Below, one piece after another: positions 34,583 through 59,384 of a stretch of DNA of 64,000 bases. The stretch's first letter is position 1, and each line of letters starts with the position of its first letter. A program made the position numbers and the translations under genes. This DNA comes from Cucumis sativus. Lineage: Eukaryota; Streptophyta; Magnoliopsida; Cucurbitales; Cucurbitaceae. Under the pieces are notes generated by a model. The model ran no database searches, was not told the DNA's origin, and was given only the letters and a program-made list of their open reading frames with translations. The stretch covers positions 28,833,498 through 28,897,497 of the forward strand of contig NC_026660.2 of assembly GCF_000004075.3 (NCBI RefSeq). The letters are read 5' to 3'.

Positions 34583-37267
34583 ATGGCATTCTTTCTTCCT
34601 CTTGTTTTGTTTTTCATTGCCAGAGTTTGTGCCAGTCCACCTGTCTTCGTCGGCCATTACTGTTTGTATGATAGTGGAAACTTCACCAGCATCAGTACGT
34701 ATAAGACCAACCTCGATCATGTCCTTTCCTCCATTGCCACTGCCAAAGATACTGGCAATGGCTTTTACAGTTTTTCCTACGGGCAAAACTTAGACAAAGC
34801 AAATGCTATTGGCCTCTGCCGAGGCGATGTTAAGTTTGATGTATGTCAAAGCTGCCTCATTGACTCTATACATCGTCTGAAAAAGCTATGTCCTCAGCAG
34901 AAAGAAGCAATTGGGTGGTTTGACAACTGCATGCTTCGCTATTCAAACCATTCCTTATTTGGTGTAATGGATACTCGACCCAATATCTTCATGTGGTCGA
35001 CAATCAATGTAACAGAGAAACCTCTGTTCAGCCAGAAGTTAAAATTATTACTGGATAGCTTGAAAAAGAATACCTCTACAGGTGGTTCTCTAAAGAAGTA
35101 TGCAAGTGGAGACATAGGTGCACACAGTCTCTGGACAATATATGGGCTTATGCAATGCACACCTGACTTGTCTCAGCTACAATGTGACGAGTGCTTAGAG
35201 TCAGCGTTACAAGCAATCCCACCATGCTGTAGTGAAGGAATGGAAGTTTTTTTACCCAGCTGTCATGCCAGATATGAACCGTACATCTTCTTTGAGCTTT
35301 CTCCTAAGTTGCAACCACCACTGCTACCGCCACCACCACTATTAGTATTTACTCCTTCAACTAGTACCATGTCTACGGAGGGTATGGTTAATGCCTATGT
35401 CACTTTTGCCCTTTTCAATACTATATTTTGTTTTCTCTCAAGCTTCCAAGAATCAAGCAATGTATTTACAAAAATTGAATAATACATCCTCAAGATAAAA
35501 AGATTTTAACAAGTAGTTCAAGAATTTAGCTTCCAGAGATGCCTTTTTTTCCAGGAAAGAAGTTCAAAATACAAAGTGCCATTGTGATAGTTCTTCCACT
35601 TGTGGCGCTTTTGGTATTCTTGACCACCGGGATCTTTATCTTTTGGAGATCCAGAAGGTTGAGGGGAAGACAGGAGAGTAAGATTATTTTATTATTGTCA
35701 CAGACTAATGCTTTCCCCCCTCCCCCCTTTTTTATGGGTATAATTATCTTCTTGAAAGTATGATTTTCTGTTAAATCTCTTGTCACTACACTACTTGTGA
35801 AGCTAGTGATGGTGATATTAACTCTGTGGACTTCTTGCAATACGACTTTAAGACGATCAAAGATGCAACCGATGACTTTTCAACTGCCAATAAACTTGGA
35901 CAAGGTGGATTTGGTATCGTTTATAAGGTAATGAATTGAAAAGAAATAGAACACAACTGTAGCATTTTGTCCCATCAGGATAGATGAATTCTAATATATT
36001 TGGTTTTGCTTTTTATCTTTCAGGGTAAACTTCTCAATGGACAAGAAGTGGCTGTAAAAAGGCTAGCTCGAGGATCTCAACAGGGAGACCTTGAATTTAA
36101 GAATGAAGTTTTATTGGTTGCTAAGTTGCAGCACCGGAATCTGGTTCGACTTCTAGGCTTTTGTTTCGAGAGAAGTGAAAGGCTTCTAATCTACGAGTTT
36201 TTACCTAATTCAAGCCTAGATCGTCTGATATTCGGTACTTTTCTGCACTCTGTTCTATGTTCTTGAGCATCATTTTGTGAACTTTTTTGGTAAAAAGAAA
36301 ATCCACATTATCGTTGCTTGTAGTAGCTAAACAAGCCATATTCCTGTTAAATGAAAATGTAGATCCAATGCAGCGCCAATATTTGGACTGGCCAAGACGT
36401 TACAAAATTATAGTAGGCATCAGTCGTGGCCTCATGTATCTCCATGAAGATTCTCGATTCAAAGTCATCCATCATGATCTTAAAGCCAGTAATATACTAT
36501 TGGATGCAGAACTAAATCCAAAAATTAATGATTTTGGAATGGCAAGATTGTGTTCGTACAATCAATCCAATGGTGATACAAGTAAAATTAAAGGAACATA
36601 GTAAGTCCTTTTGCTCCCTTTTTTAAAAAGTCAAGTAATTGAATTCTCTTAAAAAATTAGCTTCTCTTATGAGACAAACAATTATTGAACTTAAAAGTAT
36701 TTATTTATTTCAAGTGGATACATGGCCCCAGAGTATGCATTATATGGGCATTTCTCAGTAAAATCAGACGTGTTTAGTTTTGGTGTGCTTCTTCTAGAGA
36801 TAGTGAGTGGCCAAAAGAACGGTAGCGTTCAAGATGGTGAAAATATAGAGCATCTTTTGAGCTATGTAAGTACTAATATTATTAATGGACATCATTCTTT
36901 CTTTTCCTACAAATGTAACACAATCTTGCCAATGCAGACATGGGAAAACTGGACGAAAGGAACAATTACAAATATTATAGACCCAATATTGAGTAGAACC
37001 TGCACTGATGGAATCATAAGATCCATTCATCTAGGGTTATTATGCGTTCAAGAAGATGCAGATAGCCGACCAACCATGGCTTTTGTTGTTCTTATGCTGA
37101 ATAGCAGTTCCTTCACTCTTCCTACACCATCACGGCCTGGATTTTTGCTGCATAGTAAATCATCAAACATTGCACAGCCATTTAATTGCTCAGAAGGTTC
37201 TCAATTTAGCCCATCTGCGAGCATTTCTATTGAAGAAGAATCATCAAACCAGTTTAACCCATATTAG
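34583..37267 (+). CDS. CRK locus 9: CRK with HHD in place of the HRD catalytic motif
   Basis: Exons 34583-35381, 35555-35677, 35803-35927, 36024-36234, 36363-36600, 36715-36865 and 36938-37267 join to about 658 residues. Signal peptide ends near VCAS. DUF26-1 shows [13 protein letters not shown] and DUF26-2 [13 protein letters not shown]. The kinase has [16 protein letters not shown] with the ATP-anchoring lysine, DFGMA and MAPEY. The catalytic loop reads [10 protein letters not shown]: the arginine of HRD, which normally contacts the phosphorylated activation loop, is histidine, while the catalytic aspartate is kept. The activation segment also reads KIKGT where neighbours have IVGT. The kinase may therefore be active without activation-loop control, or weakened. 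Founder of the loci 9-11 group. Confidence 0.9.
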
Positions 37268-37804: not shown

Positions 37805-39877
37805 AAGGGAAAATTCCTATGGTCACTGCCGAAGATACTGGCAATGACTTTTACAAAATTTCCTATGGTCAAAGCTCAGAATCAGCAAACGTTATTGGCC
37901 TCTGCCAAGGAGAGACGGAGCCGGATGTTTGTCAAAGCTGCCTTAATATATAGTTTCTCACACATCCATGTCCTAAGCAGAAAGAAGCAATTGTGTGGTA
38001 TGGCAACAGTATGCCACGCTTTTCAAGTCGTCCTATATTTGGTGCAATGGAACTTGAACCCCAATACATATCATGGATAACAAACCACCAAATAATACAC
38101 AAACATCTGTTCAAGCAGAACCTGATCACATTACTGGATAGCTAGAAAGATAATGCTTATTCAGAAGGTTCTATATGGAAATGTTGAAAGTAGAGCCTAC
38201 TAATAAAAAATTAGGACAAAGTAAATCTTCACTATTCTTAGGCTTTCAACATGACCTAAGTCCACTATTTCTAACAGAAAGTATGCATGGATCACATTGT
38301 AGTTTAGGCACACCTTATTTGCATAAACTACAATGGACGCTAGGATTCAACGAGAAAACAAAAAAAAAAGGAATATTAATTAGAACCTTATTGTTTAAAA
38401 AAATTAGTTCAAGAATTTAACAGAGAGATGTCAATTGTTTTCAGCAAAGAAGAATACCATAATCACTACCATTGTAATAGTTCTCCCATTTGTGGCTGTT
38501 TTGGTTTTAGCCGTTGGTATGTTCTTCAAAGCTTAATGTTTCTTTGTCATAATTATCATATTTGGAAGAGTAAAGTTCTGCTAAGTTTCTAATCTCGTGT
38601 CACATACTACTTGTGACTTGTGAAGATAGTGATGATGACATTATCCTCACTTTCTTGCATTGTGATTTTAAGACAATTAGAGAAGCAACAGACCACTTTT
38701 CTATTTCAAATAAACTTGGACAAGGAGAATTTGTTGTTGTTTATAAGGCAACGAGTGAAATTGAAGTATCTTAAAATGTCAAAGCATAGAATTTTGTTCC
38801 AACAGGGTAGAAGACTTCTAAGATTCTACTATTGTTTATGTATCTTCTGGGTAAGCTTTTCAATGGACAAGAAATGGCTGTGAAAAGGCTAGCTCAAAGT
38901 TCGCAACAGGTTCACTTCGAATTTAAGAATGAAGTTTTACTGGTTGCTAAGTTGCAGCACCGGAATCTGGTTCGGCTTCTTGGCTTTTGCTTTGAGAAGA
39001 ACGAAAGGCTCCTCATCTATGAGTTTTTGAGAAGAACGAAGATTATCGATTCAAAGTTATCCATCATGATCGTAAAGCTAGTAATATCTTATTAGATGCA
39101 GAGCTAAATCTAAAGATCACTGATTTTGGAATAGGTTATGTTCGATCCATCAGTCTGATGGTGATATGAGCAAGATTAAGGGAACATAGTAAGTTCTAAA
39201 AACTGTCGAACTCTGTTACGTTCAATTCCCATATTTTCTTCAAAATTAGGCTGTTTTACAAGGTTGAGACAAATATTGAACTTAATATTTCTTATTTCAA
39301 GAGGATATATGGCCCCCGAATACACGCTGTTACGGGCATTTTTTTTTTTTTTTGTGAAAACAGATGTTTTCAGTTTTGGTGTTATTCTCTTTGGAGATCG
39401 TAAGTTGCCAAAAGAACAGTTGCTTCCAAGATGGGGAAAATACAGAACACCTTCTAAGCTATGTAAGTATGAATATTTTTAAAAGATATGTTCTGTCCTT
39501 ACAAAGTTGAACAAAATTTGCCGAAGCAGACATGGAAAAACTAGATGGAAGGGAAAGCCACGGCCATCATAGACCCAATACTGGCTAGAACTTGCATTGA
39601 TGAAATCATGAGATGCATCCATCTAGAATTACTGTGTGTTCAAGAAAATGTAGATATCCGACCAACCATGGATTCAGTTGTTTTCATGCTCAATTGCAAC
39701 TCCGTCACTCTACTTGTACCGTTGCAGCCTGGATTTTTGCTGCAGAGCAATACCTCAAACTTGCCACAGCATCTTGATGATCACACAGAAGGACCACACC
39801 ATAGTCTATCTGAGAGCTTTTATGTTGAAGAAGAATCGGGAAATCAGTATTCAGCTATTGATATTCAAGCTTACTAG
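37805..39877 (+). pseudogene. CRK locus 10: decayed copy of locus 9
   Basis: Begins inside DUF26-1 at sequence matching locus 9 near 34740, so the start and signal peptide are gone. DUF26-1 is readable as GLCQGETEPDVCQSC, then a TAG follows near 37951; DUF26-2 is badly eroded. A membrane-exon remnant lies at about 38446-38515, kinase exon 3 at about 38628-38745 with the glycine loop changed to GQGEF, and exon 4 from about 38850. Exon 4 is fused directly to the middle of exon 5 near 39040 by a deletion that removes intron 4. Exon 6 (39300-39460) contains a run of 17 T near 39340-39356 that breaks the frame. Exon 7 (about 39531-39877) is largely intact. The catalytic loop is HHD, as in locus 9, so that change predates the duplication. 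Confidence 0.88.
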
Positions 39878-40184: not shown

Positions 40185-40219
40185 GGAATGGCTGAGAAGA
40201 AGCTCAAAGCCAAGCAGCC

Positions 40220-41204
40220 ATGGCATTGTATCTTCTCCCTTCTCTTCTGCTATTAATGGCCAAAGCTAGTGCTCAGCCAAACTTCATCTCTCACCTCTGC
40301 TTATACAAAACTGGTAACTTCACACCCAAGAGTACCTTCAAGGCCAACCTTGACCATGTCCTCTCCTCCGTCACCACCAACGGAATACTCGACAATAGCT
40401 TTTACAGATTCTCTTATGGACAAAACTCGGACATAGCTAATGCTGTTGGCCTTTGTCGACCTGACATTAAGCTCGACACTTGTCAAAGCTGCCTCAATGA
40501 CTCTGTTCGCCTCCTCACAAAGCGCTGTCCTAACCAAAAAGAAGCAATTGGATGGTATGAAAATTGCTCCTTGCACTACTCAAGTTCATCCCTGTCCAAT
40601 AAAATGCATATTAGTCCAATGTTCAGGACTCGGTCGACAAAAAACGCAACAAACACAGATCAGTTCATTCGAAAGCTAAGAATCTTGTTGAATAGTCTAA
40701 AAAGCAAAGCTTCTTTAGGTGATCATGGTTCTCTACACAAATATGCAGCTGGAAATATGTCGAGTTCAGAGCTGGAAACAACATACGCCCTTGTTCAATG
40801 CCTGCCTGATTTAACTCCACAACAATGTGATGATTGCTTATCTTCCATTTTCAAGAAACTCCCAAGTTGTTGTAGCCAATCTGCTGGGATTTTTACCCCC
40901 AGCTGTTTGGTGATTTATAAACCAACCCGCTTCTTTGATTCTGTAACTGATGATGGGCCAACTTCCTCATCAACCGTTCACGAATCTCGTGCAGCAGGTA
41001 TGTATGTTTCCTGTTGTTTATCTTCACAGAGCAATGTGAATTCTGGGCCTAACTCGGGTTTTTGCAGGGAAAAAGAATGGGAAGAACAAAGTTCATATTG
41101 TGATCATAATGGTTTTGTCAGTAGCTTCTTGCTGGATTTTGATAATCTGCATCTACGTGTTTCTGCAATCCAGGAAGATTGAGGAGAGAGCGGATAGTAA
41201 TTAA
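40220..41204 (+). CDS. Locus 11: kinase-less DUF26-DUF26-TM protein (PDLP-like layout) derived from a CRK
   Basis: Exon 1 (40220-40997) encodes a signal peptide ending near ASAQ, DUF26-1 (CRPDIKLDTCQSC) and DUF26-2 (CLPDLTPQQCDDC). Exon 2 (41068-41204) adds a transmembrane helix (about VHIVIIMVLSVASCWILI) and a short basic tail QSRKIEERADSN, then TAA at 41202-41204. Total about 304 residues. The GT at 41197, where the paralogues splice to the kinase exons, is still present, but no kinase exon exists before the next gene at 42181. Signal peptide, two DUF26 domains, one membrane helix and a tiny cytosolic tail is the layout of plasmodesmata-located proteins, which regulate callose and cell-to-cell movement. 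Sequence points to descent from the locus 9-10 CRK group, so this is convergent layout, or a truncated relic. The 70-base intron is open in frame, so retention would give a 320-residue form without the helix. Confidence 0.75.
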
Positions 41205-41991
41205 TCTCTTTTTGTTGTTATATTCAATTCATTATATTATATTACTTAAAAAAAGAAATAAAAGGTTGACTTGGATTCCAGCGATCAATCAATCTCTTTC
41301 CCTTTTTGTATGAAACTTTGACTTGCGCTTCTAATAATGGTGGTTAACGTGGGGTTCATTTGGAACAAAGCTTCTAAAAAAATACAATCAGATTTTTGTA
41401 TATAGTAAAAGTAATTTGAATCCCCAAAGAACAAAGTATAACATGCAATTCTACGAAAATGTTAAAGGTGCTTGAAATGATTAATATCTTAGATTTTGAT
41501 TGGAACCATGCCATGCGATAACAGTTGGCATTGTTCAAGAAGCTCATAAATGTCCTAACCATTGTTACATTATTGTGTTTTGTAGAAAACCATATAAACA
41601 CTTATTTTTCCCAAAAGAAGAAAAGAATCTTGAAGGTTGATGGGAACTACAAAGTTTCCAATTTATAATTCTTACCATATATATACGGTTTCAACCTTTT
41701 ATTTTCTTTTATTTATGCATATTATCAATTATTCAACTACTTTAAGTATTTATGTAATTATTAAAAGCTAAATAAAATAGTTACAAATATAGTAATTATA
41801 TTCAAACTATTAATATATACATATAACATCCTTAAAATGTGGTAGATATAACAAAATATAAAATATAACAAAAGTGTATCACTGATAAGTAAATATTTTT
41901 CAAAAGTTTTTGAATGGCAAATTTAATTATAGAAATGAGTTAAAAATCTCACGCGTTCGTCATTACCCCCAACGGAGGAAGATTCCTTTAG
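41205..41991. other. intergenic DNA after locus 11
   Basis: Searched for CRK kinase exons: none. The part at about 41740-41900 has 'TACAAATATAGTAA' and 'TATCACTGATAA' segments that resemble the hairpin repeat at 6876-7160, in a degenerate form. Confidence 0.45.
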
Positions 41992-42065
41992 TCTGACGGT
42001 TACAAATTGTGCACCCTCAGATATCCTCTAATCTGACGGTCACGAATTGTGCACCCTCAGATATC
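41992..42065. repeat. 34-base direct repeat, period 40, upstream of the GeBP gene
   Basis: Copies at 41992-42025 and 42032-42065 differ at two positions. Each runs from TCTGACGGT through GTGCACCCTCAGATATC. Being 115-190 bases before the ATG, it may duplicate a promoter element. Confidence 0.8.
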
Positions 42066-42090
42066 GCGCCCAATTCTCGTCCTATGACCA

Positions 42091-42140
42091 AGCCCACTGA
42101 ACTTTTGATGCGCAGTCTCTTGGATCTGATCAAACCCTAG
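42091..42140. promoter_or_regulatory. site II element and telo-box before the GeBP gene
   Basis: AGCCCA (reverse of TGGGCT, site II) at 42091-42096 and AAACCCTAG (telo-box) at 42132-42140. This pair, with site II upstream and telo-box near the start, is known from promoters of growth, ribosome and cell-cycle genes. The ATG follows at 42181. Confidence 0.5.
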
Positions 42141-42180
42141 CACTTCCAAGCCAAACAAACCCCGATCTCCGTCTCCGACT

Positions 42181-43425
42181 ATGGCTCCCAAACGCCCCTC
42201 GCCTTTGGATGAGCCTCCGGCAGCGTCTTCCTCCGAAGAAGAAGAAACCTCATCGGGCGAGGAAGAGGAAGGAGTTTCCAGAGACGGATCTTCCTCTGAA
42301 GAAGAAGAAGAGGATGAAGAAGAAACTCAAACTCAGACTCAGAAACCAAAGAAACCTTCTGCTCTTCCTTCTACTTCTGTTGTCGAGAAAAAACCTGCAC
42401 CTAAGAAATCTGAACCTTCTACTAACTCTCAGGCTCAGTTTTCTTCCTCAGAGAGCGGCTCCGGATCCGACACCGATTCGGATACTGAGTCCGGACGAAA
42501 CGTCAAGCCGATTGCTTCTAAGCCGATGGATGAGACTCCGAAGGTGAAAAAGCCCAGATCCAAGCCTTCTGCCTCAGTTACGCCTGCGAGACCGTCTTTG
42601 AAGAAGCCTGGTGAGACGACAAGAGATGCAAAAAGGCCAAAGAAGAGTTCTGAGGCTGACGCTGATGATGGGGTTGTGGCGGAAGACGATTCCAAGAAAT
42701 CTGTTGACGAGTCCAAGAAGCTGTTTCAGAGACTATGGAGTGAGGATGACGAGATTGCTATATTGAACGGTATGATCGATTATTCAGCCAAGAAGGGTTC
42801 TGACCCATCTTTGGATATGAATGCATTTCATGACTTCATCAAGAAATCTCTCCATGTCGACGTAACGAAGGCCCAATTAATGGATAAGATACGTCGACTG
42901 AAGAAGAAATATAGAAACAATGCAGATAGAGGAAAGAAGGGTGCAGATCCAACGTTTTCAAAAGCCCACGATCAGAAAGGATTTGAACTGTCGAAGAGAA
43001 TATGGGGCGGCGAAGGATTTCTTCGAACTCCGGCTGTGGATCAGCTCAAGCCAAATGCTAATGGAACTCCAAAGAAGAATCAAAGAGGTAGCACCAGTAA
43101 GGCACTGGCTTCACTTAAAGCTGAGTTGCTTCCTTCTCCAGATGCCCCGAAGGAGGATGATAAGATGAAAGTCGATGATTGCGAGGTTCCTTCAGGTTGC
43201 ATGGATGGCTTTGTTGCGTTTGAAAGGTCTTTGGGTGCTGTTGGTTTGCCGGAAAGTTTTTTGAAGCCAGGATTAGAGTTAATAGGGCAGTCCAAGAGAA
43301 CAGAGCTGGAGGAAGAGTGGAAAAAATTGCATCTTGCAGAACTCGAGCTTTTTCTGAAGAGGACGGAGTTGATTAGGGATCAGACAAAGTTGATACTGGA
43401 CGCGTACAAGTCATCTAGCAGGTAA
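42181..43425 (+). CDS. GeBP/STKL (storekeeper-like, DUF573) transcription factor
   Basis: Intronless frame of 414 residues, as usual in this family. The first about 175 residues are low-complexity: acidic EEE/SSE runs, then lysine/proline/serine-rich tracts including nuclear-localisation-like KRPKKSS. The DUF573 DNA-binding domain spans about residues 180-280, opening FQRLWSEDDEIAILNGMIDY, then a long K/R-rich helix DKIRRLKKKYRNN and the conserved HDQKGFELSKRIWG. The C-terminal about 70 residues hold LEEEWKKLHLAELELFLKR, matching the leucine-zipper-like dimer region of the family. These proteins bind promoters such as GL1 and affect trichome, cytokinin and defence responses in Arabidopsis. 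It is expressed from a housekeeping-type promoter by its motifs. Confident as to family; target genes here are unknown. Confidence 0.92.
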   Translation: MAPKRPSPLDEPPAASSSEEEETSSGEEEEGVSRDGSSSEEEEEDEEETQTQTQKPKKPSALPSTSVVEKKPAPKKSEPSTNSQAQFSSSESGSGSDTDSDTESGRNVKPIASKPMDETPKVKKPRSKPSASVTPARPSLKKPGETTRDAKRPKKSSEADADDGVVAEDDSKKSVDESKKLFQRLWSEDDEIAILNGMIDYSAKKGSDPSLDMNAFHDFIKKSLHVDVTKAQLMDKIRRLKKKYRNNADRGKKGADPTFSKAHDQKGFELSKRIWGGEGFLRTPAVDQLKPNANGTPKKNQRGSTSKALASLKAELLPSPDAPKEDDKMKVDDCEVPSGCMDGFVAFERSLGAVGLPESFLKPGLELIGQSKRTELEEEWKKLHLAELELFLKRTELIRDQTKLILDAYKSSSR

Positions 43426-48845: not shown

Positions 48846-51800
48846 ATGTTGGAGAAGATCGGATTGCCGGCTAGGCCATCTCTTCGAGGGAACAACTGGG
48901 TGGTGGATGCTTCTCATTGTCAAGGATGTTCGTCTCAGTTCACCTTTATCAATCGCAAGGTTCGTCTTTGGTTTTTTTCATACTCCATCTTTAAATTCTT
49001 CTTTTTTCTTTTGAAGCACGGTGTGTGTAGGTCATCGTGATAGTATCCTCTGACGTCTTACTTAATTCTATTTTGCTCTGCTGTGTGGATGGTTCTTTTT
49101 TCTTTCTTTTATCTCTCCAAGTGGACGGTTTCTTTGCATAGGAAATGTAAGGGATTGTCTTGGTTTTAATTAGACAACAGCACTAGGGCTAAAATCAAGA
49201 TGACTGATGAATCATGATAGGGGTTCTCTAATGAACAAGGCTGGATTCTTAATAAGGAATTCAAATTTTTTTATTAAAATTTGAACGCTGTATCTTATTG
49301 AAGATATCTGATTCCACTTGTTAATTATTTTGGAACGTATGCATTCTGGGTTTTCAGCATCATTGTCGGAGGTGCGGGGGAATATTTTGCAATAGTTGCA
49401 CGCAGCATAGAATGGTTTTGCGTGGACAAGGTGATTCTCCTGTGCGCATATGCGAACCTTGCAAGAAGCTAGAAGAAGCTGCAAGGTTTGAGCTTCGGCA
49501 TGGACACAAAAGCAGAACTGGAAGAGGTATGAGTATATCATGAAGCCAATTGTTCTACGAGTTTTTTTTTAATCATTGTACTTCCGTAATTAAATTTGTA
49601 GAAGCATGAAATTTGAATTAAGACCTTCCTAAGGTGAAAAGTTTATTTCATCTGATGGGTTTCCTACTCCTTTGTAAGTCGAAAAGTTTGTTCAATTGAG
49701 CAAAAAAGATGAATCTGGTGTTTGTTCATTTGTAAGTCGAGAAGTTTGTTCCTTTTCACAAAAAATAAAAAATAAAACTTGTGTTTGTTCGTCTCTACTT
49801 TCAATAATTAATAAAAAGTATTGTTTCCTTTTCACAAAAAATAAATAATAAATAAATAACTATAATTTGAATTTGGACGTGTTTAGGCTATGTATAATTC
49901 ATTGACAAGAACTACTCTCTTTCTTTTGTGTATGTTAGGTGCAGAATGCACACTTACCATGCCCACGTATAACATCTTCTGTCATTATTGATTCTCTCAC
50001 TTTATGTTTGTCTTTTTGAAAGGGTTTTATTGTCTCCATTTATCGTGTAGGTAGCTTGAAATCAACAAAGCCTGAGGATGACGTTTTGGCTGAGATTCTC
50101 GGTAGTGATAGAAAGGAATCATCATCTTCAGTGCAAGAATTAAATGGCAACAGTTCTACAAGTGGAAGGACTGTTGCTGGTGAAGAGTTCGTAGACCATG
50201 GGGAAGGAGAGGCATCCAGTAGTTTAACAGATCATCAAGAAAATAAAATGGAATCTAGCAGTCCGGAGCAATTGCGCCAGCAAGCTTTAGATGAAAAAAA
50301 GAAATATAAGGTTCTTAAAGGTGAAGGTAAATCTGAGGAAGCATTAAAAGCTTTTAAGAGAGGAAAAGAACTCGAGAGGAAAGCTGATGCTTTGGAAATT
50401 TCTATAAGAAGAAGCCGTAGAAAAGCTATAGCATCCAGTAATGCATATGAAGACCACGATGTTGGTGGTTTTAAAGAATCTGGTAGAAAAATGAAGCCTA
50501 GTCCACAAAGTAGTAATGAAAAGCACGATCTTAATGCTGAACTCAAAGAACTTGGATGGTCTGAAATGGATCTTCATGCCGAGGATAAAAAATCAGCTAC
50601 AATGAGTTTAGAGGGTGAGCTATCTTCTCTTCTTAGGGGTGTCACACAAAAGACCGACAAAGCTAAGGGTGTTCATAGCATTGACAATACCCAGGTTGTT
50701 GCTCACAAAAGAAAAGCTCTAATGTTGAAACGTGAAGGCAAGCTAATAGAAGCCAAGGAAGAACTTAAGAAAGCTAAAGTTTTAGAAAAGCAGCTTGAAG
50801 AACAAGAGCTCTTGGCTGGAGCTGAGGATGACTCAGATGATGAGCTATCTGCATTGGTGCGTAGTTTGGATGATAATAAGCACGAAGATATTTCATTTCA
50901 GCACAAGGAGAATCTCGAATTTGATCTTGATAACCTTCTAGGGGTTGCTAATACTATCATTTCTGACATCAACTTTGAAGTGACAGATGAGGACATGGAA
51001 GATCCTGAAATTTCTGCTGCTTTAGAAACATTAGGTTGGACTGAAGATTCCAATAACGCTGAAAGCATTCAGCCCCAACCTTCTTCTATTTCCAGGGATT
51101 CGATAAAAAGTGAAATAATTTCCTTGAAAAGAGAGGCTCTTAATCAAAAGCGTGCAGGTAATATTGCAGTGGCTATGGAACACCTTAAGAAAGCCAAGAT
51201 ACTTGAGAGAGACCTTGAGAATTTCGGATCTCAAGAAGATAGGCATGTTTCAGGCGGTGGCAGTACTGAAACAGCAGAAGTCATGATTCCTAAACTTCCT
51301 TCCAAAAGTAAATTAGCCATCCAGAAAGAGCTTCTTGCTATAAAGAAGAAAGCCCTGTCCTTGAGAAGGGAAGGAAGGTTGGACGAGGCAGAAAAAGAAT
51401 TGAACAAATGCAAGGCCCTGGAGGACCAACTTGAACAAGCGGCTGAAGCTTCAAGGGGGAATGGCAGAGAGGTGGGTGTTGGAAGTAATGATCCACATTT
51501 GCTCTCTGCGGATCTCAATAAAAATTTGCTAGATGTGGAAGTGGTTGAAGATGTAACAGATCAAGAAATGCATGACCCCGAGTATCTTTCCGTTCTTAAA
51601 AATTTAGGTTGGAATGACAAAGATGATGATTTGGTCCCTTCAAATCCCTCTAAACAAGATGATTTGCTAGATGTGGAACCAAGTGAGTCATCTGCAAATC
51701 ATGCTCCTAAATACGCAGTTAGGCCACTAAGAAAAAAGGTTGAAGTCCAGAGAGAACTTTTGGGATTGAAAAGAAAGGCTCTCTCTCTTAGACGCCAAGG

Positions 51801-53658
51801 GGAGACTGAGGCAGCAGACGAAGTGCTGCTAAAGACCAAAGCTTTAGAGGCCGAGATGGAGGAGATAGAAAGTAGGGATAGAGTTAGAACTGCTGCCTAT
51901 AGTGGGAACCAAGAGGACAATCGCAAAGCCTCTTCTGGAAGGTTGGTCAATCAAGGTGACGATTGTGATGTCACAGAGGAAGATATGAGTGATCCGTCAT
52001 TACTCTCTGTTCTACAGAATTTGGGATGGAATGGTGATGATGTTGCACCAGTAATTAAGCAGATCAATCCGGTTAACGAGGATGCAAAACCATCTAGTAA
52101 CCAATCTTCTACAACCAATGTCACTGCACCACAAAGTAGAAGTGAAATTCAAAGAGAGGTTCTAAATTTGAAAAGAAATGCACTTTCCCTTAGAAGAAAA
52201 GGCGACATTGACGAAGCTGAGGAAGTCTTGAGAAGAGCAAAGGTGCTGGAGATCCAAATGGATGAACTGGATACTCCAAAACCAAAAGGTGTGGTTGATA
52301 TCACTGAGGATAACAAGTCTGAAGTTCTCAGAGCATTGGAAGGAGATGAGTTGCGAAACCGTGTGAAGGGTGTGGAGGTACATAATGTATCAGCACAAGT
52401 TGCAGACGGTCTGAAAGCGAATGACAAAGTACCAGTTCTGTCCATGGATTTAAAGTCTTCCAGAGGCAATTCAGTTCATTCCCGTTTGCAAAATTTTGAC
52501 CAATCTGACCGTTTAGATTCTAATGAGCTCAGAGCCTCATTCAGAGAAAGTACTTCAGGTAGAAATAGTTCTCTGGAAGGTACGATAACTAGTGAAGCTT
52601 TTAGTTCCAATTATCAACCTGCTGAGAATGTGAATACATATTTAACCTTAAATAATTGATATTTCAATGTAGGTAATGGACGGCGAGATGACCAATCAAT
52701 CTCTCACTCTGATGTGTTGACTAATGTTGGCCTTTTCACAGAGTCTGGATCCCAGGCAATTTCTGCTGTTACAAATAAAGATCATTTCAGCATTGTAAAC
52801 CAAGACCCTGTCGTTTATCATGAAGGGAAACAACATTACCAAGCGGACAGCTCCTCTCAGGACTCTAATTCTCAGAGCAGCAAAAATTCCTTACACCAAG
52901 AAGTTTTGGCTCGCAAGAAGAAGGCAGTTGCATTAAAGAGAGAGGGAAAACTGTCAGAAGCTCGTGAAGAACTTCGACAGGCAAAGTTAATGGAGAAATC
53001 CCTTGAGGAAAGCAATGGTCAGGTTCAACATGCTTCAAAAAGTTCATCAATTTCCTCAAACAATGTACCATCACCTAACCGTAAGGAATCTAGCACATCA
53101 AACGTAGAACAGAAACCATCACCTGACCAGAAGCAGTCTAGCCCATCAACTAGGGAACAGAAACCAATGTCTGCTCGTGACCGCTTCAAGTTGCAGCAGG
53201 AGTCACTCAAGCACAAACGACAGGCTTTAAAATTTCGTAGAGAAGGTCGAACACAAGAAGCTGATGCAGAGTTTGAAAAGGCCAAGGCCATTGAAACTCA
53301 ATTAGAGCAGTTAACCGACTCTACAAATTCATCTGCAAGTGGAGAAGAGCATGCAGGAGATGTAAGTGTTGAGGATTTTCTTGATCCTCAATTGCTCTCT
53401 GCTTTGAGAGCTATTGGATTGGAAGATCCGACACCGAGCATTCCTAGAGGTCAAGAAACGTCAAAGCCGCCACCAAAGGTTGGCACTGATAAGTTGGAAA
53501 ATCCAGACTTAGAAAGAAGTCAATTGGAGGAACGTATCAAAGCAGAAAAGGTGAAGGCAGTGAACTTGAAACGTTCGGGAAAGCAAGCAGAGGCCTTAGA
53601 TGCCTTGCGGCGAGCCAAACTCTATGAAAAAAAGTTGAATGCCTTATTACCGAATTAA
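48846..53658 (+). CDS. FYVE-domain phosphoinositide-binding protein with helical-hairpin repeats
   Basis: Exons 48846-48959, 49358-49526, 50051-52579 and 52673-53658 join in frame to about 1265 residues. The N-terminal FYVE domain (residues about 18-76) shows WVVD, CQGC, RKHHCRRCG and RICEPC, the WxxD, R(K)HHCRxCG and RVC signatures that bind PI3P on endosomes. The rest is charged and helical. A hairpin of about 35 residues (AL-LRR-G-EAEE-L-AK-LE-QLE) occurs nine times, near nucleotides 50265, 50695, 51100, 51310, 51740, 52145, 52885, 53180 and 53520. Between them, a five-times repeated acidic module (such as DVTEEDMSDPSLLSVLQNLGW split by variation) ends in LGW. I placed the last intron at 52580-52672 because its GTACGA donor restores frame; without it the frame stops at 52659. 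From memory it resembles Arabidopsis At1g61690. Likely an endosomal adaptor; partners unknown. Confidence 0.88.
49671..49860. repeat. imperfect direct repeats within intron 2 of the FYVE gene
   Basis: TTTGTAAGTCGA followed by AAGTTTGTTC occurs at 49671-49693 and 49729-49751 (period 58, one mismatch). A further TTCCTTTTCACAAAAAATAAA occurs twice downstream, near 49750 and 49826. Local slippage or unequal exchange is the likely cause. Confidence 0.6.
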
Positions 53659-53980: not shown

Positions 53981-55219
53981 TCAAGTGCTCTGAGGAATTT
54001 TCAATTTGAAAATTGAATGAGAATTGTAGAGCGCCACAAGGTCCTTAGCTTCTTCAATCTTGGAAACTTCAATCAATCCATCAACTACACGCTGCACCTC
54101 CTCTGCAAGAAAAACTAATCCATTATCAAAGGACTCCTTGCACAGTCGAAGTCCAGAATCAAAATCACCCTTCTCGCAATACAAGGGGAGAAGCGTCCTG
54201 TAGATCGATGCATTTGGATTAACTTCGTTGTCCTTCAATTTGTAATACCATTGTTTGGCTTGCTCCAAATCTCCATCTTCACAAAAGCCTTCAATCAGAA
54301 TATAGTAACTGTCCACATTTGGCTTGATTGCCTTCTCCTCCATTTCAGCTAGCAACTGAATCCCATCTTGAATTCTCTTCTCTAGAACCATTCTTTGCAA
54401 CCTCGCATTGTAACTTATTAGATCAGGAGCAATGTTCTTGTTCTCCATCCTAGCCCACATGCTTTCCCCGTCTAAAAACTGGCCCTTACTGTAGAGTGCA
54501 GTTAAAAGCGTATTGAATGTAACCAAATTTGGCTCCGTTCCATTCTTCTCCATGTCATTGAAGAACAAGATGGCTTTATCCAAAGCGCCCATTTTGCAGT
54601 ACGCATTGATAACAATGTTATACGATACCACATCTGCTTCTATCGAAACTTCCTGTGGTACCTCCCTAAAAATCGTTTCAAGTTGATCGAATTCCTTGGA
54701 ATTAGCACAAGGTACCTCCCTAAACATCGTTTCAAGTTGCTCGAATTCCTTGGAATTAGCACAAGAAGTCAAAAGGGCATTAAAAGACTTAACAGTCCGC
54801 TCGCAATTAAGTTCAGGCAATTCATCGAACAACTTGCGTGCATGAGAGAACATGCCCGCTTTCCCATACAGCTTAATGAGGCGGATCGCGAAACCTTCTT
54901 CTTTAATTTCCTCATACTTCTTCTGGGCTTCTATAATATCTTCAATCATGGAAAATTTTTTATGGATAGCAAGAAGGCGAACTGTAGAAAAATAGGTATC
55001 GTTCTTGCGGCGGAATTTTTCGGATTCGGAGTTCTTTATGAACCTTTTAACGAGCTTTTGAAGACCTTGTTCGGAGGTGAGAGGAGTTGCGGCCGTGGAT
55101 TTGTTGCATTTTTTGGTAGCTGAAGGAGGCGAGGGGTTGGGTTTGTTGACTCTGGGTGTGGGGGAACGAGAATAGTTGAAGATGCCATGGAGACGACGGG
55201 AGAGGGAAGAGGAAAACAT
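53981..55219 (-). CDS. PPR gene 1: P-class pentatricopeptide repeat protein, probably mitochondrial
   Basis: Intronless, 412 residues from the ATG at 55219. The N-terminus MFSSSLSRRLHGIFNYSRSP is basic and serine-rich with no acidic residue, as in mitochondrial presequences. About seven 35-residue PPR motifs follow from about residue 110, for example VSYNIVINAYCKMGALDKA and VTFNTLLTALYSKGQFLDG. No E, DYW or SMR domain. The architecture and length match the PPR336/rPPR1 family, which in Arabidopsis associates with the mitochondrial ribosome; that assignment is from memory. A 54-base in-frame tandem duplication at 54657-54764 repeats 18 residues (CANSKEFxQLETxFREVP) absent from genes 2 and 3, adding half a PPR motif. 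Its upstream ACGACGGCGTT element is cut off by the duplication junction near 55314. Confidence 0.88.
   Translation of the reverse strand: MFSSSLSRRLHGIFNYSRSPTPRVNKPNPSPPSATKKCNKSTAATPLTSEQGLQKLVKRFIKNSESEKFRRKNDTYFSTVRLLAIHKKFSMIEDIIEAQKKYEEIKEEGFAIRLIKLYGKAGMFSHARKLFDELPELNCERTVKSFNALLTSCANSKEFEQLETMFREVPCANSKEFDQLETIFREVPQEVSIEADVVSYNIVINAYCKMGALDKAILFFNDMEKNGTEPNLVTFNTLLTALYSKGQFLDGESMWARMENKNIAPDLISYNARLQRMVLEKRIQDGIQLLAEMEEKAIKPNVDSYYILIEGFCEDGDLEQAKQWYYKLKDNEVNPNASIYRTLLPLYCEKGDFDSGLRLCKESFDNGLVFLAEEVQRVVDGLIEVSKIEEAKDLVALYNSHSIFKLKIPQST
54657..54764 (-). repeat. 54-base in-frame tandem repeat inside PPR gene 1
   Basis: Copies 54657-54710 and 54711-54764 differ at two positions. Each encodes 18 residues ending FREVP. 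PPR genes 2 and 3 have a single copy here. Confidence 0.95.
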
Positions 55220-55313
55220 TTTTCTCAACAGAAGAGAAACAGGGGATTTAGAGTTTAGAGTTTAGAGGTTAAAGGTGTGTAATAAGGGACGGGCTTTACC
55301 ATTAAACTAAAAC

Positions 55314-55806
55314 GAGCCTGGAGCCTCATTCAGAGAAAGTACTTCAGGTAGAAATAGATCTTTGGAAGATAAGATAGCTACTGAAGCTTTCAGTTCGTAG
55401 AGAAGGTCGAACACAAGAAGCTGAAACTCAGTTAGAGCAGTTAACCGACTCTACAAAATCATTTGCAAGTGGAGAAGAGCATGCATGAGATGTAACTGTT
55501 GAGCATATTCTTGATCCTCAACTGCATATTGCTTTGAGAGCTATTGGTTTGGAAGATTCAACTCCGAACATATCTAGAAGTCAAGAAACGTTAAAGCCAC
55601 CGCCAAAAGTTAGCACTGATAAGATGGAAACAAAGTTGGAAAGAAGTCAACTGAAGGAACGTATCAAAGCAGAGAATGTGAAGGCAGTGAACTTGAAACG
55701 TTTGGGAAAGCAAGCTGAGGCCTTAGATCCTTGCGGAGAGCCAAACTCTGAAAAAAAGTTTGAATGTCTTAGTATCGAATTAAGAACAAGTTGTGTGCCA
55801 TTTTGA
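55314..55806 (+). pseudogene. truncated copy of the FYVE gene 3' part (unit 2)
   Basis: 55314 to about 55398 matches FYVE exon 3 from 52524 to about 52609 (GAGCCTCATTCAGAGAAAG). It then jumps directly to exon 4 sequence at about 53237 (GTAGAGAAGGTCGAACAC), with TTC shared at the join. The rest matches the last exon to its end, with a TGA near 55488, a changed QAEALDPCGEP end and frameshifts. The FYVE domain, the promoter and most repeats are missing, so it is a dead fragment. A 90-codon frame at 55534-55806 is a leftover. Confidence 0.85.
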
Positions 55807-56129
55807 ATTCTTCTTCCAATTAATTCTTAATATTGGTACACTGTCATTTGAAAATGTACCATCATTGATCTCAATTCATTCTCATGCTACAGTTATGTCA
55901 TAATTCTGTTGAGTCATAACAATGAAATTATTCTACCATTAGTTTCATTCTCATCCTGGTATCAAGAGTTCTAAAAAAATGACTTTTTTCTTAATTCACG
56001 ATCCATAATCAAGAAAAATACATTCAGATCCCTCTTCAATCAAATTTCCCACTGAAGAAGAAAAAGATGGTCAATTTAACAAACAGTATAAAATTGAAGC
56101 CGAAGTCACATAGAAGTAAAACCATCTTT
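55807..56129. other. duplicated 3' spacer, unit 2
   Basis: Copy of 53659-53980 between the FYVE remnant and PPR gene 2. No gene. Confidence 0.7.
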
Positions 56130-57326
56130 TCAAGTGCTGTTCTGAGGCAATTTCAATTTGAATTTTAAATTATTCTTAGAATTGTAGAGCTCCACAAGGT
56201 CCTTTGCTTCTTCAATCTTGGAAACTTCAGCCAATCCATTAACCACACGCTGCACCTCCGCTGTATGAAAAACGAATCCTTTATCAATGGCCTCCTTGCA
56301 CAGCTGAAGTCCAGAATCAAAATCACCTTGCTCGCAAAGCAAGGGGAGAAGTATCCTGTAAGTCGTTGCAATTGGATCAACTTCACTCTCCTTCAATTTG
56401 TAATACCATTTTTTGGCTTCCTCCAAATCCCCATCTTGACAAAAGCCCTTAATCAAAATATTGTAACTGTACACATCTGGCTTAATTTCCTTCTCCTCCA
56501 TTTTAGCTAGCAACTCAATCCCATCTTGAATTCTCTTCTCCAGAACCATTCCTCGCAGCCTCGCATTGTAACTTACTAGATCAGGAGCAATGTTCTTGTT
56601 TTCCATCGTAGCCCACACCCTTTCTCCATCAAAGAACTGACCCTTTCTATAGAGTGCAGTTAAAAGCGTATTGAATGTAACCAAATTTGGCTCCATTCCA
56701 TTCTTCTCCATGTCATGGAAGAACAAGATGGCTTTATCCAAAGCGTCCATCTCGCAGAAAGCATTGATAACAATATTATACGATATCACATCTGCTTTTA
56801 TCGAAACTTCCTGCGGTACCTCCCTAAAAATCTTTTCAACTTGATCTAACTCCTTGGACTTAACACAAGAAGCCAAAAGGGAATTAAAAGACTTAACAGT
56901 CCGCTCGCAATTTAGTTCGGGCAATTCATCGAACAACTTGCGCGCATGAGAGAACATGCCCGCTTTCCCATACAGCTTAATGAGGCGGGTCGCAAAACCT
57001 TCTACTTTAATATCCTCATACTTCTTCTGGGCTTCTATAATATCTTCAATCAGGGAAAATTTTTTACGGACAGCAAGAAGGCGAACTGTGGAATCATAAG
57101 TGCCTTTCTGGTGGCGGAATCGTTGGGACTCGGTGTTCTTAATGAACTTGTCAACGATGTTTTGAAGATGTTCTTCGGCGGTGAGAGGAGTTGCGGCGGT
57201 GGATTTGTTGCATTTTTGGGTAGCTGAAGAAGGAAGCGAGGGGTTAGATTTGTTGAATCTGGATGTGGGGGAACGAGAATGGTTGAAGATGCCATGGAGA
57301 CGGCGGGAGAGGGAAGAGGAAAACAT
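56130..57326 (-). CDS. PPR gene 2: P-class PPR protein, probably mitochondrial
   Basis: Intronless, 398 residues from the ATG at 57326. Presequence-like start MFSSSLSRRLHGIFNHSRSP. About seven P-class PPR motifs: FATRLIKLYGKAGMFSHARK, VKSFNSLLASCVKSKELDQ, ISYNIVINAFCEMDALDKA, VTFNTLLTALYRKGQFFDG, VSYNARLRGMVLEKRIQDG, YSYNILIKGFCQDGDLEEA and TTYRILLPLLCEQGDFDSG. It lacks the 18-residue insertion of gene 1. The C-terminus KFKLKLPQNST is shared with gene 3. Upstream it has an intact AAAACGACGGCGTT element and a site II motif, so it is probably expressed. Family role: organelle RNA binding; the PPR336/rPPR1 link is from memory. Confidence 0.88.
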   Translation of the reverse strand: MFSSSLSRRLHGIFNHSRSPTSRFNKSNPSLPSSATQKCNKSTAATPLTAEEHLQNIVDKFIKNTESQRFRHQKGTYDSTVRLLAVRKKFSLIEDIIEAQKKYEDIKVEGFATRLIKLYGKAGMFSHARKLFDELPELNCERTVKSFNSLLASCVKSKELDQVEKIFREVPQEVSIKADVISYNIVINAFCEMDALDKAILFFHDMEKNGMEPNLVTFNTLLTALYRKGQFFDGERVWATMENKNIAPDLVSYNARLRGMVLEKRIQDGIELLAKMEEKEIKPDVYSYNILIKGFCQDGDLEEAKKWYYKLKESEVDPIATTYRILLPLLCEQGDFDSGLQLCKEAIDKGFVFHTAEVQRVVNGLAEVSKIEEAKDLVELYNSKNNLKFKLKLPQNST

Positions 57327-57406
57327 CTTTTTCAACTAAGAGAAACAGAGGGTTTAGAGTTTAGAGGTAAAAGGTGTGTAATAAGGGACGTGCTTTACCA
57401 GAAACA

Positions 57407-57439
57407 AAAACGACGGCGTTCTGGTTGTTTAATGGCCCA
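57407..57439 (-). promoter_or_regulatory. AAAACGACGGCGTT element and site II motif before PPR gene 2
   Basis: AAAACGACGGCGTT at 57407-57420 and GGCCCA (reverse of TGGGCC) at 57434-57439 lie 80-115 bases upstream of the ATG at 57326. The same GACG-GCGTT core occurs in the FYVE promoter and before PPR gene 3. Site II elements are common in promoters of nuclear genes for mitochondrial proteins, which fits the predicted PPR location. Confidence 0.5.
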
Positions 57440-57641
57440 TTTTTGTATAATACTTGGCCTCCCATAACTCCAAACAACTTTTTAAGCAAAATCAGTTTTA
57501 AGTTTCATTTAGATATATGGCAAATAGGGATATTCTTTTGATTTATTACACTAAATTAGTTCGAATCTAGATAAACTACAATTTATTGTCTCAAATTAAT
57601 TAGCTTTAATTGTTTAAAATTTAGACTTTGGAGTCAATTTA

Positions 57642-57860
57642 AGAAGGAAGGCACTGCCCTTAGAAGAAAAGGGGGCATTGATGAAGCTGAGGAAGTTTTG
57701 AGAAGAGCAAAGGTGCTGGAGATCCAAATGGATGAACTGGATACTCCAAAACCAAAAGGTGTGTGGTTGATGTCACTGAGGATGACAAGTCTGAAGTTCT
57801 TAGAGCATTGGAAGGAGATGATTTGCGAGACCCTGTGGAGGATGTGGAGATACGTAATGT
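57642..57860 (+). pseudogene. truncated copy of the FYVE gene 3' part (unit 3)
   Basis: About 220 bases matching FYVE exon 3 from about 52171 (CTTAGAAGAAAAGG, GAGATCCAAATGGATGAACT). An extra base after AAAGGTGTG shifts the frame. At about 57858 it passes directly into the FYVE 3' UTR equivalent of about 53728, with AATGTA-CATCA-like sequence shared at the join, so all of exon 4 is deleted. A dead fragment. Confidence 0.82.
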
Positions 57861-58153
57861 ACCATCACTCATCTCAATTCGTTCTCATTCCACAATTGTG
57901 TCGTAGTTCTGTAAAGTCAGAATAATGAAATTATTCTTTCATTAGTTTCATTCTCATCCAGGTGCCAAAAGTTACAAAAAAACTTTCTTCCTAATTGACG
58001 ATCCATAATAAGCATTAAAAAAAAAAAACTCAAGAAAAATACATTCAGATCCCTCTTCAATCAAATTTCCCATTGAAGAAGATGAAAAGGATGGTCAATT
58101 TAACAAACAGTTTAAAATTGAAGCCGAAGTCACACAGAAGTAAAACCATCTTT
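57861..58153. other. duplicated 3' spacer, unit 3
   Basis: Copy of the FYVE-PPR spacer with an added poly-A near 58017-58028. No gene. Confidence 0.65.
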
Positions 58154-59350
58154 TCAAGTGCTGTTCTGAGGCAATTTCAATTTGAATTTTAAATTATTCT
58201 TAGAATTGTAGAGCTCCACAAGGTCCTTTGCTTCTTCAGTCTTGGAAACTTCGGCCAATCCATCAACCACACGCTGCACCTCCGCTGTATGAAAAACGAA
58301 TCTTTTATTAATGGCTTCCTTGCACAGCTGAAGTCCAGAATCAAAATCACCCTTCTCGCAAAGCAAGGGGAGAAGTGTTCTGTAAGTCGTTGCATTTGGA
58401 TCAACTTCACTCTCCTTCAATTTGTAATACCATTTTTTGGCTTCCTCCAAATCCCCGTCTTTACAAAAGCTTGTAATCAGAGTATTGTAAATGTGCACAT
58501 CTGGCTTGATTTCCTTCTCCTCCATTTTAGCTAGCAACTCAATCCCATCTTGAATTCTCTTGTCTAGAACCATTCCTCGCAACCTCGCATTGTAACTTAC
58601 TAGATCAGGAGCAATGTTCTTGTTTTCCATCCTAGCCCACATGCTTTCTCCATCTAAGAACTGACCCTTTCTATAGAGTGCAGTTAAAAGCGTATTGAAT
58701 GTAACCAAATCTGGCTCCATTCCATTCTTCTCCATGTGATTGAAGAACAAGATGGCTTTATCAAAATCGTCCATCTCGCAGTAAGCATTGATAACAATAT
58801 TATACGATGACACATCTGCTTCTATCGAAAGTTCCTGTGGCACCTCCCTAAAAATCTTTTCAACTTGATCAAATTCCTTGGATTTAACACAAGAAACCAA
58901 AAGGGCATTAAAAGACCTTACAGTCCGCTCGCACTTCAGTTCAGGCAATTCATCGAACAACTTGCGCGCCTGAGAGAACATGCCTGCTTTCCCATAGAGC
59001 CTAATGAGGCGGATCACAAAACCTTCTTCTTTAATTTCGTCATACTTCTTCTGGGCTTCTATAATTTCTTCAATCATGGAAAATTTTTTACGAACAGCAA
59101 GAAAGCGAACTGTAGAATCATAGGTGTCGTTCTTGCGGCGGAATTGTTTGGACTCGGAGTTGATAATGAACCTTTGAACGAGCTTTTGAAGACGATTTTC
59201 GTCGGTGAGAGGAGTGGCGGTGGGGGATTTTTTGGATTTTTTGGTAGCTAAGGAAGAAAGCGACAGGTTGGGTTTGTTGAATGCGGGTGCGGGGGAACGA
59301 GAATGGTTGAAGAGGCAATGGAGACGACGGAAGGGGGAAGAGGAAGACAT
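58154..59350 (-). CDS. PPR gene 3: P-class PPR protein, probably mitochondrial
   Basis: Intronless, 398 residues from the ATG at 59350. N-terminus MSSSSPFRRLHCLFNHSRSP is basic and serine-rich. About seven PPR motifs in the same order as gene 2, including VSSYNIVINAYCEMDDFDKA and HIYNTLITSFCKDGDLEEA. No 18-residue insertion. The C-terminus matches gene 2. All frames intact. A telo-box and an ACGACGACGTT element lie upstream. Differences among the three PPR genes fall within motifs, including residues near the positions that contact RNA, so they could recognise slightly different targets; that is inference. Confidence 0.88.
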   Translation of the reverse strand: MSSSSPFRRLHCLFNHSRSPAPAFNKPNLSLSSLATKKSKKSPTATPLTDENRLQKLVQRFIINSESKQFRRKNDTYDSTVRFLAVRKKFSMIEEIIEAQKKYDEIKEEGFVIRLIRLYGKAGMFSQARKLFDELPELKCERTVRSFNALLVSCVKSKEFDQVEKIFREVPQELSIEADVSSYNIVINAYCEMDDFDKAILFFNHMEKNGMEPDLVTFNTLLTALYRKGQFLDGESMWARMENKNIAPDLVSYNARLRGMVLDKRIQDGIELLAKMEEKEIKPDVHIYNTLITSFCKDGDLEEAKKWYYKLKESEVDPNATTYRTLLPLLCEKGDFDSGLQLCKEAINKRFVFHTAEVQRVVDGLAEVSKTEEAKDLVELYNSKNNLKFKLKLPQNST

Positions 59351-59384
59351 ATTTTCAACTGAAGGAAAACGGGGGACTAGGTTT

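Follow-up and report, generated by a model that had tools for sequence, protein, structure and literature searches.

Locus 11 of the window (the whole 64,000-nucleotide stretch of DNA analysed here) is a further case of a known route: it encodes a kinase-less protein that is anchored in the membrane, derives from a CRK and carries features of the variable clade. The explanation that we favour, with moderate confidence, is that locus 11, a CRK copy in a tandem array, has been stripped of everything 3' of the transmembrane exon, and that its product would be a variable-type derivative that is held in the membrane and acts through its ectodomain. The case is built on the structure of the gene, its place among the CRKs of the window, the loss of the kinase exons and the selective constraint on the part that is left.

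Gene structure and product

The features discussed here are collected in Table 1. Splicing of the two exons gives a protein of 304 residues in an uninterrupted frame, and the position of intron 1 is identical to that of intron 1 in the CRK copies. The predicted signal peptide covers residues 1 to about 18, DUF26-A about 27-122 and DUF26-B about 140-239; a Pfam search finds PF01657 (Stress-antifung, DUF26) in two stretches of the protein (E=1.9e-35). The start and the splice sites are conserved, all of the ectodomain cysteines are kept (12/12), and two C-X8-C-X2-C motifs are present. The single strong hydrophobic helix lies at about residues 266-292, with the best 19-residue windows beginning at 266-277, and is followed by a tail of 12 residues, QSRKIEERADSN. 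These results confirm, in coordinates and in structure, the clean 304-residue frame with signal peptide, two DUF26 domains, one helix and 12-residue tail that the initial annotation had described. Its claim that the frame reads past the old donor for two codons is likewise correct, since the GT is found at 41197-41198 and the frame there runs AGT AAT TAA.

An AlphaFold model of the protein gives Foldseek matches to PDLP5/PDLP8 and to ginkbilobin-2 folds. Note that this model, built from nine sequences, is of mediocre quality (pLDDT 61.7) and was used for the fold only.

Table 1. Positions of locus 11, its candidate signals and its closest CRK neighbours in the window
Feature	Position	Strand	Remarks
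Locus 9	34583..37267	+	Intact full-length CRK, closest to locus 11
Locus 10	37814..39877	+	CRK pseudogene, sister of locus 9; neutral yardstick
TATA-like element TATATAAAA	40175..40183	+	45 bases 5' of the locus 11 ATG; candidate by motif only
Locus 11 exon 1	40220..40997	+	ATG at 40220; signal peptide, DUF26-A and DUF26-B
Locus 11 intron 1	40998..41067	+	70 bp, GTATGT...GCAG, phase 1
Locus 11 exon 2	41068..41204	+	Transmembrane helix and 12-residue cytoplasmic tail; TAA at 41202-41204
Locus 11 exon-2 donor relic	41197..41202	+	ATA, then GTAATT; ancestral exon 2 end at 41196
AATAAA, possible polyadenylation signal	41257..41262	+	53 bases past the locus 11 stop; lone hexamer in AT-rich DNA, weak

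Two further observations concern the transcript. An out-of-frame ATG at 40188 opens a short frame (40188-40256), which overlaps with the first codons of locus 11; it matters only if the transcript begins 5' of 40188, and a start near 40207 would bypass it. In addition, intron 1 (40998-41067) contains no in-frame stop, and its retention would give a frame of 320 residues that ends at 41182, has no helix and would encode a secreted, CRRSP-like protein.

Relationship to the CRKs of the window

The window holds a plant CRK tandem cluster, in which eleven places match DUF26 ectodomains and nine match kinase exons. Locus 11 has its closest relative in the CRK of locus 9, with 54% identity across the aligned positions of the ectodomain. 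When the ectodomains of PDLP5 and PDLP8 are included in a tree (two PDLPs only, with sequences taken from the PDB matches), locus 11 joins locus 9 (97/98), and PDLP5 and PDLP8 stand apart together (100/99). Forcing locus 11 into a clade with the PDLPs costs 8.2 lnL units; with so few sequences the AU test gives p=0.10, and this placement is disfavoured without being formally rejected. No relatives of locus 11 were found in plasmids and viral contigs.

In the codon model described below, locus 10 is the sister of locus 9, at about 10 log units above either alternative, so that locus 11 split off before loci 9 and 10 parted. The initial annotation had derived locus 11 from the CRK group to which loci 9 and 10 belong. 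A CRK ancestry within the cluster is supported, but locus 11 is sister to loci 9 and 10 jointly and derives from neither of them.

Locus 9 represents the variable-clade (beta-group) CRKs in this comparison. It shares with locus 11 the position and phase of the intron, the start of the protein (MA..) and a pair of adjacent cysteines (CC) in DUF26-B. In contrast to locus 9, locus 11 has no kinase exons, its exon 2 runs on to a stop, and its donor lacks the G at position +5. In terms of the features that define a CRK, locus 11 has the two-DUF26 ectodomain and the intron 1 position and lacks the intracellular kinase domain. In the kinase of locus 9 itself, at 36383-36598, the catalytic loop reads HHD instead of HRD, and the catalytic Asp and the DFG are retained.

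A second kinase-less copy of a CRK ectodomain is present at locus 2 (4878-5719), which is 82% identical in DNA sequence to locus 1 (682-1506) and has neither transmembrane nor kinase exons. It contains an in-frame TAG, its omega of 0.32 is still CRK-like, and the homology has abrupt limits, beginning about 22 bp 5' of the start codon and ceasing roughly where exon 1 ends. Outside the CRK loci, two 40-bp copies that are 90% identical lie head-to-tail at 41984-42063, just 5' of a GeBP-like frame that starts near 42184, and three tandem PPR-like frames occupy 53981-59383 on the minus strand. Among the latter are plus-strand partial copies (55489-55806 and 57575-57925) that resemble parts of the gene at 50020-53658.

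Loss of the kinase exons

To look for a kinase relic, we used the kinase of locus 9 as query in a translated search. No credible match was obtained at 41197-42200, and none from there on to 64000; as a positive control, the decayed kinase of locus 10 was recovered at 7.6e-55. The absence of a kinase exon, as originally annotated, is borne out by this search. The sequence 3' of 41197 also shows no homology to intron 2, the kinase or the 3' UTR of locus 9, a comparison in which non-coding sequence is probably unalignable at such divergence. At the old donor, the +5 G is missing from locus 11 alone among the copies compared (1/9); this is expected if the donor is out of use, and it is weak evidence.

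The short tail is uninformative. A transmembrane exon is recognisable in eight further copies, and each of these would also acquire a short tail, of 7.7 to 38.7 extra codons, if it were read past its own donor. Accordingly, we rejected the short tail as a sign of adaptation, because any paralogue in the cluster gives one.

The simplest account of the loss is that a full copy, last in the array, would have been formed first and its 3' half, with the kinase, deleted afterwards. We prefer deletion because a simple direct tandem duplication with its right end in the gene places the shortened copy 5' and the complete copy 3', and locus 11 lies 3' of loci 9 and 10. An origin by simple partial tandem duplication was set aside on this ground.

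Selection on the ectodomain

Selection was measured with a codon model of eight ectodomains over 218 codons, in which locus 10 is represented by its 114 readable codons. Omega on the locus 11 branch is 0.29 against 0.32 for the CRK background (p=0.79 for the difference), with an approximate 95% interval of 0.16-0.58 from the profile likelihood, and omega=1 on this branch is rejected (2dlnL 9.6, p=0.002). Locus 10, in which frameshifts and stops bear out the lesions that had been claimed for it, gives 1.66 (about 1.4-1.7), a value above the background (p=0.0006) that does not differ significantly from 1 (p=0.40). When the analysis is restricted to five sequences and locus 10 is left out, the evidence of constraint on locus 11 becomes weaker and its direction is unchanged (omega 0.37, p=0.033). 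By domain, DUF26-A of locus 11 is clearly constrained (omega 0.16), and for DUF26-B neutrality is not rejected (omega 0.47, p=0.14). The ectodomain of locus 11 has been constrained over most of its branch, as a branch-wide average, and it is in this form that the claim of a preserved frame beside a decayed neighbour stands.

How long an open frame could last by chance was estimated by neutral simulation. Of the 304-codon frames, 5% are still free of stops after 0.08 substitutions per site and none in 2000 runs after 0.2, and adding indels leaves fewer surviving frames; dS on the locus 11 branch is 0.65. The constraint cannot be assigned to the time after the kinase was lost, however, because the loss is undated and most of the branch may predate it. 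Neutral drift over roughly the final tenth of the branch is compatible with the data.

Such drift is what would be expected if locus 11 were a young, decaying remnant, in which the kinase was deleted recently, the rest is drifting, and the constraint on the branch dates from the time when the gene was still a full-length CRK. We regard this as possible and rather unlikely. It agrees with the weak constraint on DUF26-B, and locus 2, kinase-less and in the same window, offers a parallel in that its omega is CRK-like and yet an in-frame stop has already arisen in it. The order of the copies in the array would also make a later deletion likelier than an origin as a kinase-less copy. The simulations, in contrast, leave little room for a neutral period, which would have to be short (less than about 0.08 substitutions per site, compared with the 0.65 on the branch). 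That no recognisable relic of the kinase, 3' UTR or intron remains speaks against a young remnant as well, although a clean deletion would leave none either.

Comparison with PDLPs and ddCRRSPs

PDLPs are characterized by a signal peptide, two DUF26 domains, one helix, a short cytoplasmic extension and no kinase, and locus 11 has this layout in common with PDLP1-8 (alpha group). It lies outside the PDLP clade, however, and its identity to PDLP5/8 is 23-25%, as opposed to the 54% to locus 9. In PDLPs, a linker cysteine is bridged to DUF26-B (C148-C215 in PDLP5), whereas variable CRKs have no such bridge and carry two adjacent cysteines instead (PMC12040379). Locus 11 follows the variable CRKs in this respect, without the linker cysteine and with a CC pair at residues 217-218. 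Judged from the sequence, it is PDLP-like in layout only and by descent is no true PDLP; of the original description as PDLP-like, the layout is retained and the identity is not. Note that the layout is automatic, because any CRK of the cluster would encode a protein of this type if it ended after exon 2.

A protein with this layout could nevertheless have come to work as PDLPs do. If so, the locus 11 protein would reside at plasmodesmata and regulate callose and cell-to-cell flux, a convergent PDLP, which we consider improbable. The identical layout is in its favour, as is the fact that the closest solved structures are the ectodomains of PDLP5/8. The signals that direct PDLPs to plasmodesmata are variable in sequence, and it is their position beside the membrane that matters (PMC11289629); the localisation of the locus 11 protein is therefore not predictable from sequence, and a plasmodesmal signal may be present. 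None of the features tested points to plasmodesmata, however, and the position outside the PDLP clade, the cysteine pattern and the automatic origin of the layout all weigh against such a function. The stronger statement, that a PDLP-type plasmodesmal protein arose recently, independently and convergently from a variable-clade CRK inside its parental tandem array, is in our estimate very improbable.

Beta-group ddCRRSPs were born from partial duplications of vCRKs (Vaattovaara et al. 2019, PMC6368629). Like locus 11, they descend from CRKs and lost the 3' part within tandem arrays. They are secreted, whereas locus 11 retains its transmembrane helix, provided that intron 1 is spliced, and is thus not a ddCRRSP. 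A longer transcript, in which splicing from the weak donor at 41197 leads to another exon or the stop-free intron 1 is retained to give the secreted, CRRSP-like protein of 320 residues, has the surviving GT on its side and is hardly credible, given that no kinase coding sequence follows down to 64000, that the donor lacks its +5 G and that the unrelated GeBP-like frame (about 42184-43425) begins within 1 kb 3' of locus 11.

Discussion

Interpreted as a kinase-less CRK derivative, locus 11 is probably functional and probably acts through its ectodomain. The gene would be transcribed, with the transcript ending soon after 41204, and the protein would be located in the plasma membrane. There, its ectodomain may bind the same ligand as the parental CRKs, or the partners with which their ectodomains associate; dimers of CRK ectodomains have been proposed (PMC12040379). 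Without a kinase for output, the protein would serve as a decoy or a co-receptor.

Kinase loss has occurred repeatedly in the CRK family (PMC6368629), and the origin of PDLPs and ddCRRSPs from CRKs by this route was published in 2019 (Vaattovaara et al., PMC6368629). The initial annotation had presented locus 11 as an observable route by which PDLP-type proteins arise; CRK descent and kinase loss are upheld, and the route itself is not new. Since the general route is already known for the family, what is gained from locus 11 is an added case. The same work contains a case of PDLP layout outside the PDLP clade, where it is read as an intermediate in a two-step loss, and we liken it to locus 11 by layout, not by sequence. 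Surveys that rely on domain layout may count genes such as locus 11 as PDLPs; a survey of wild rice, for example, lists 24 PDLPs (PMC9406443).

Locus 11 would be a surprise only if a plasmodesmal function were proven. Its value is rather that of a clean example of a receptor kinase without its kinase, in which the membrane-anchored outer half is intact and a neutral sibling pseudogene serves as an internal control. As such, it would help to explain how receptor-like proteins and decoys originate in tandem arrays.
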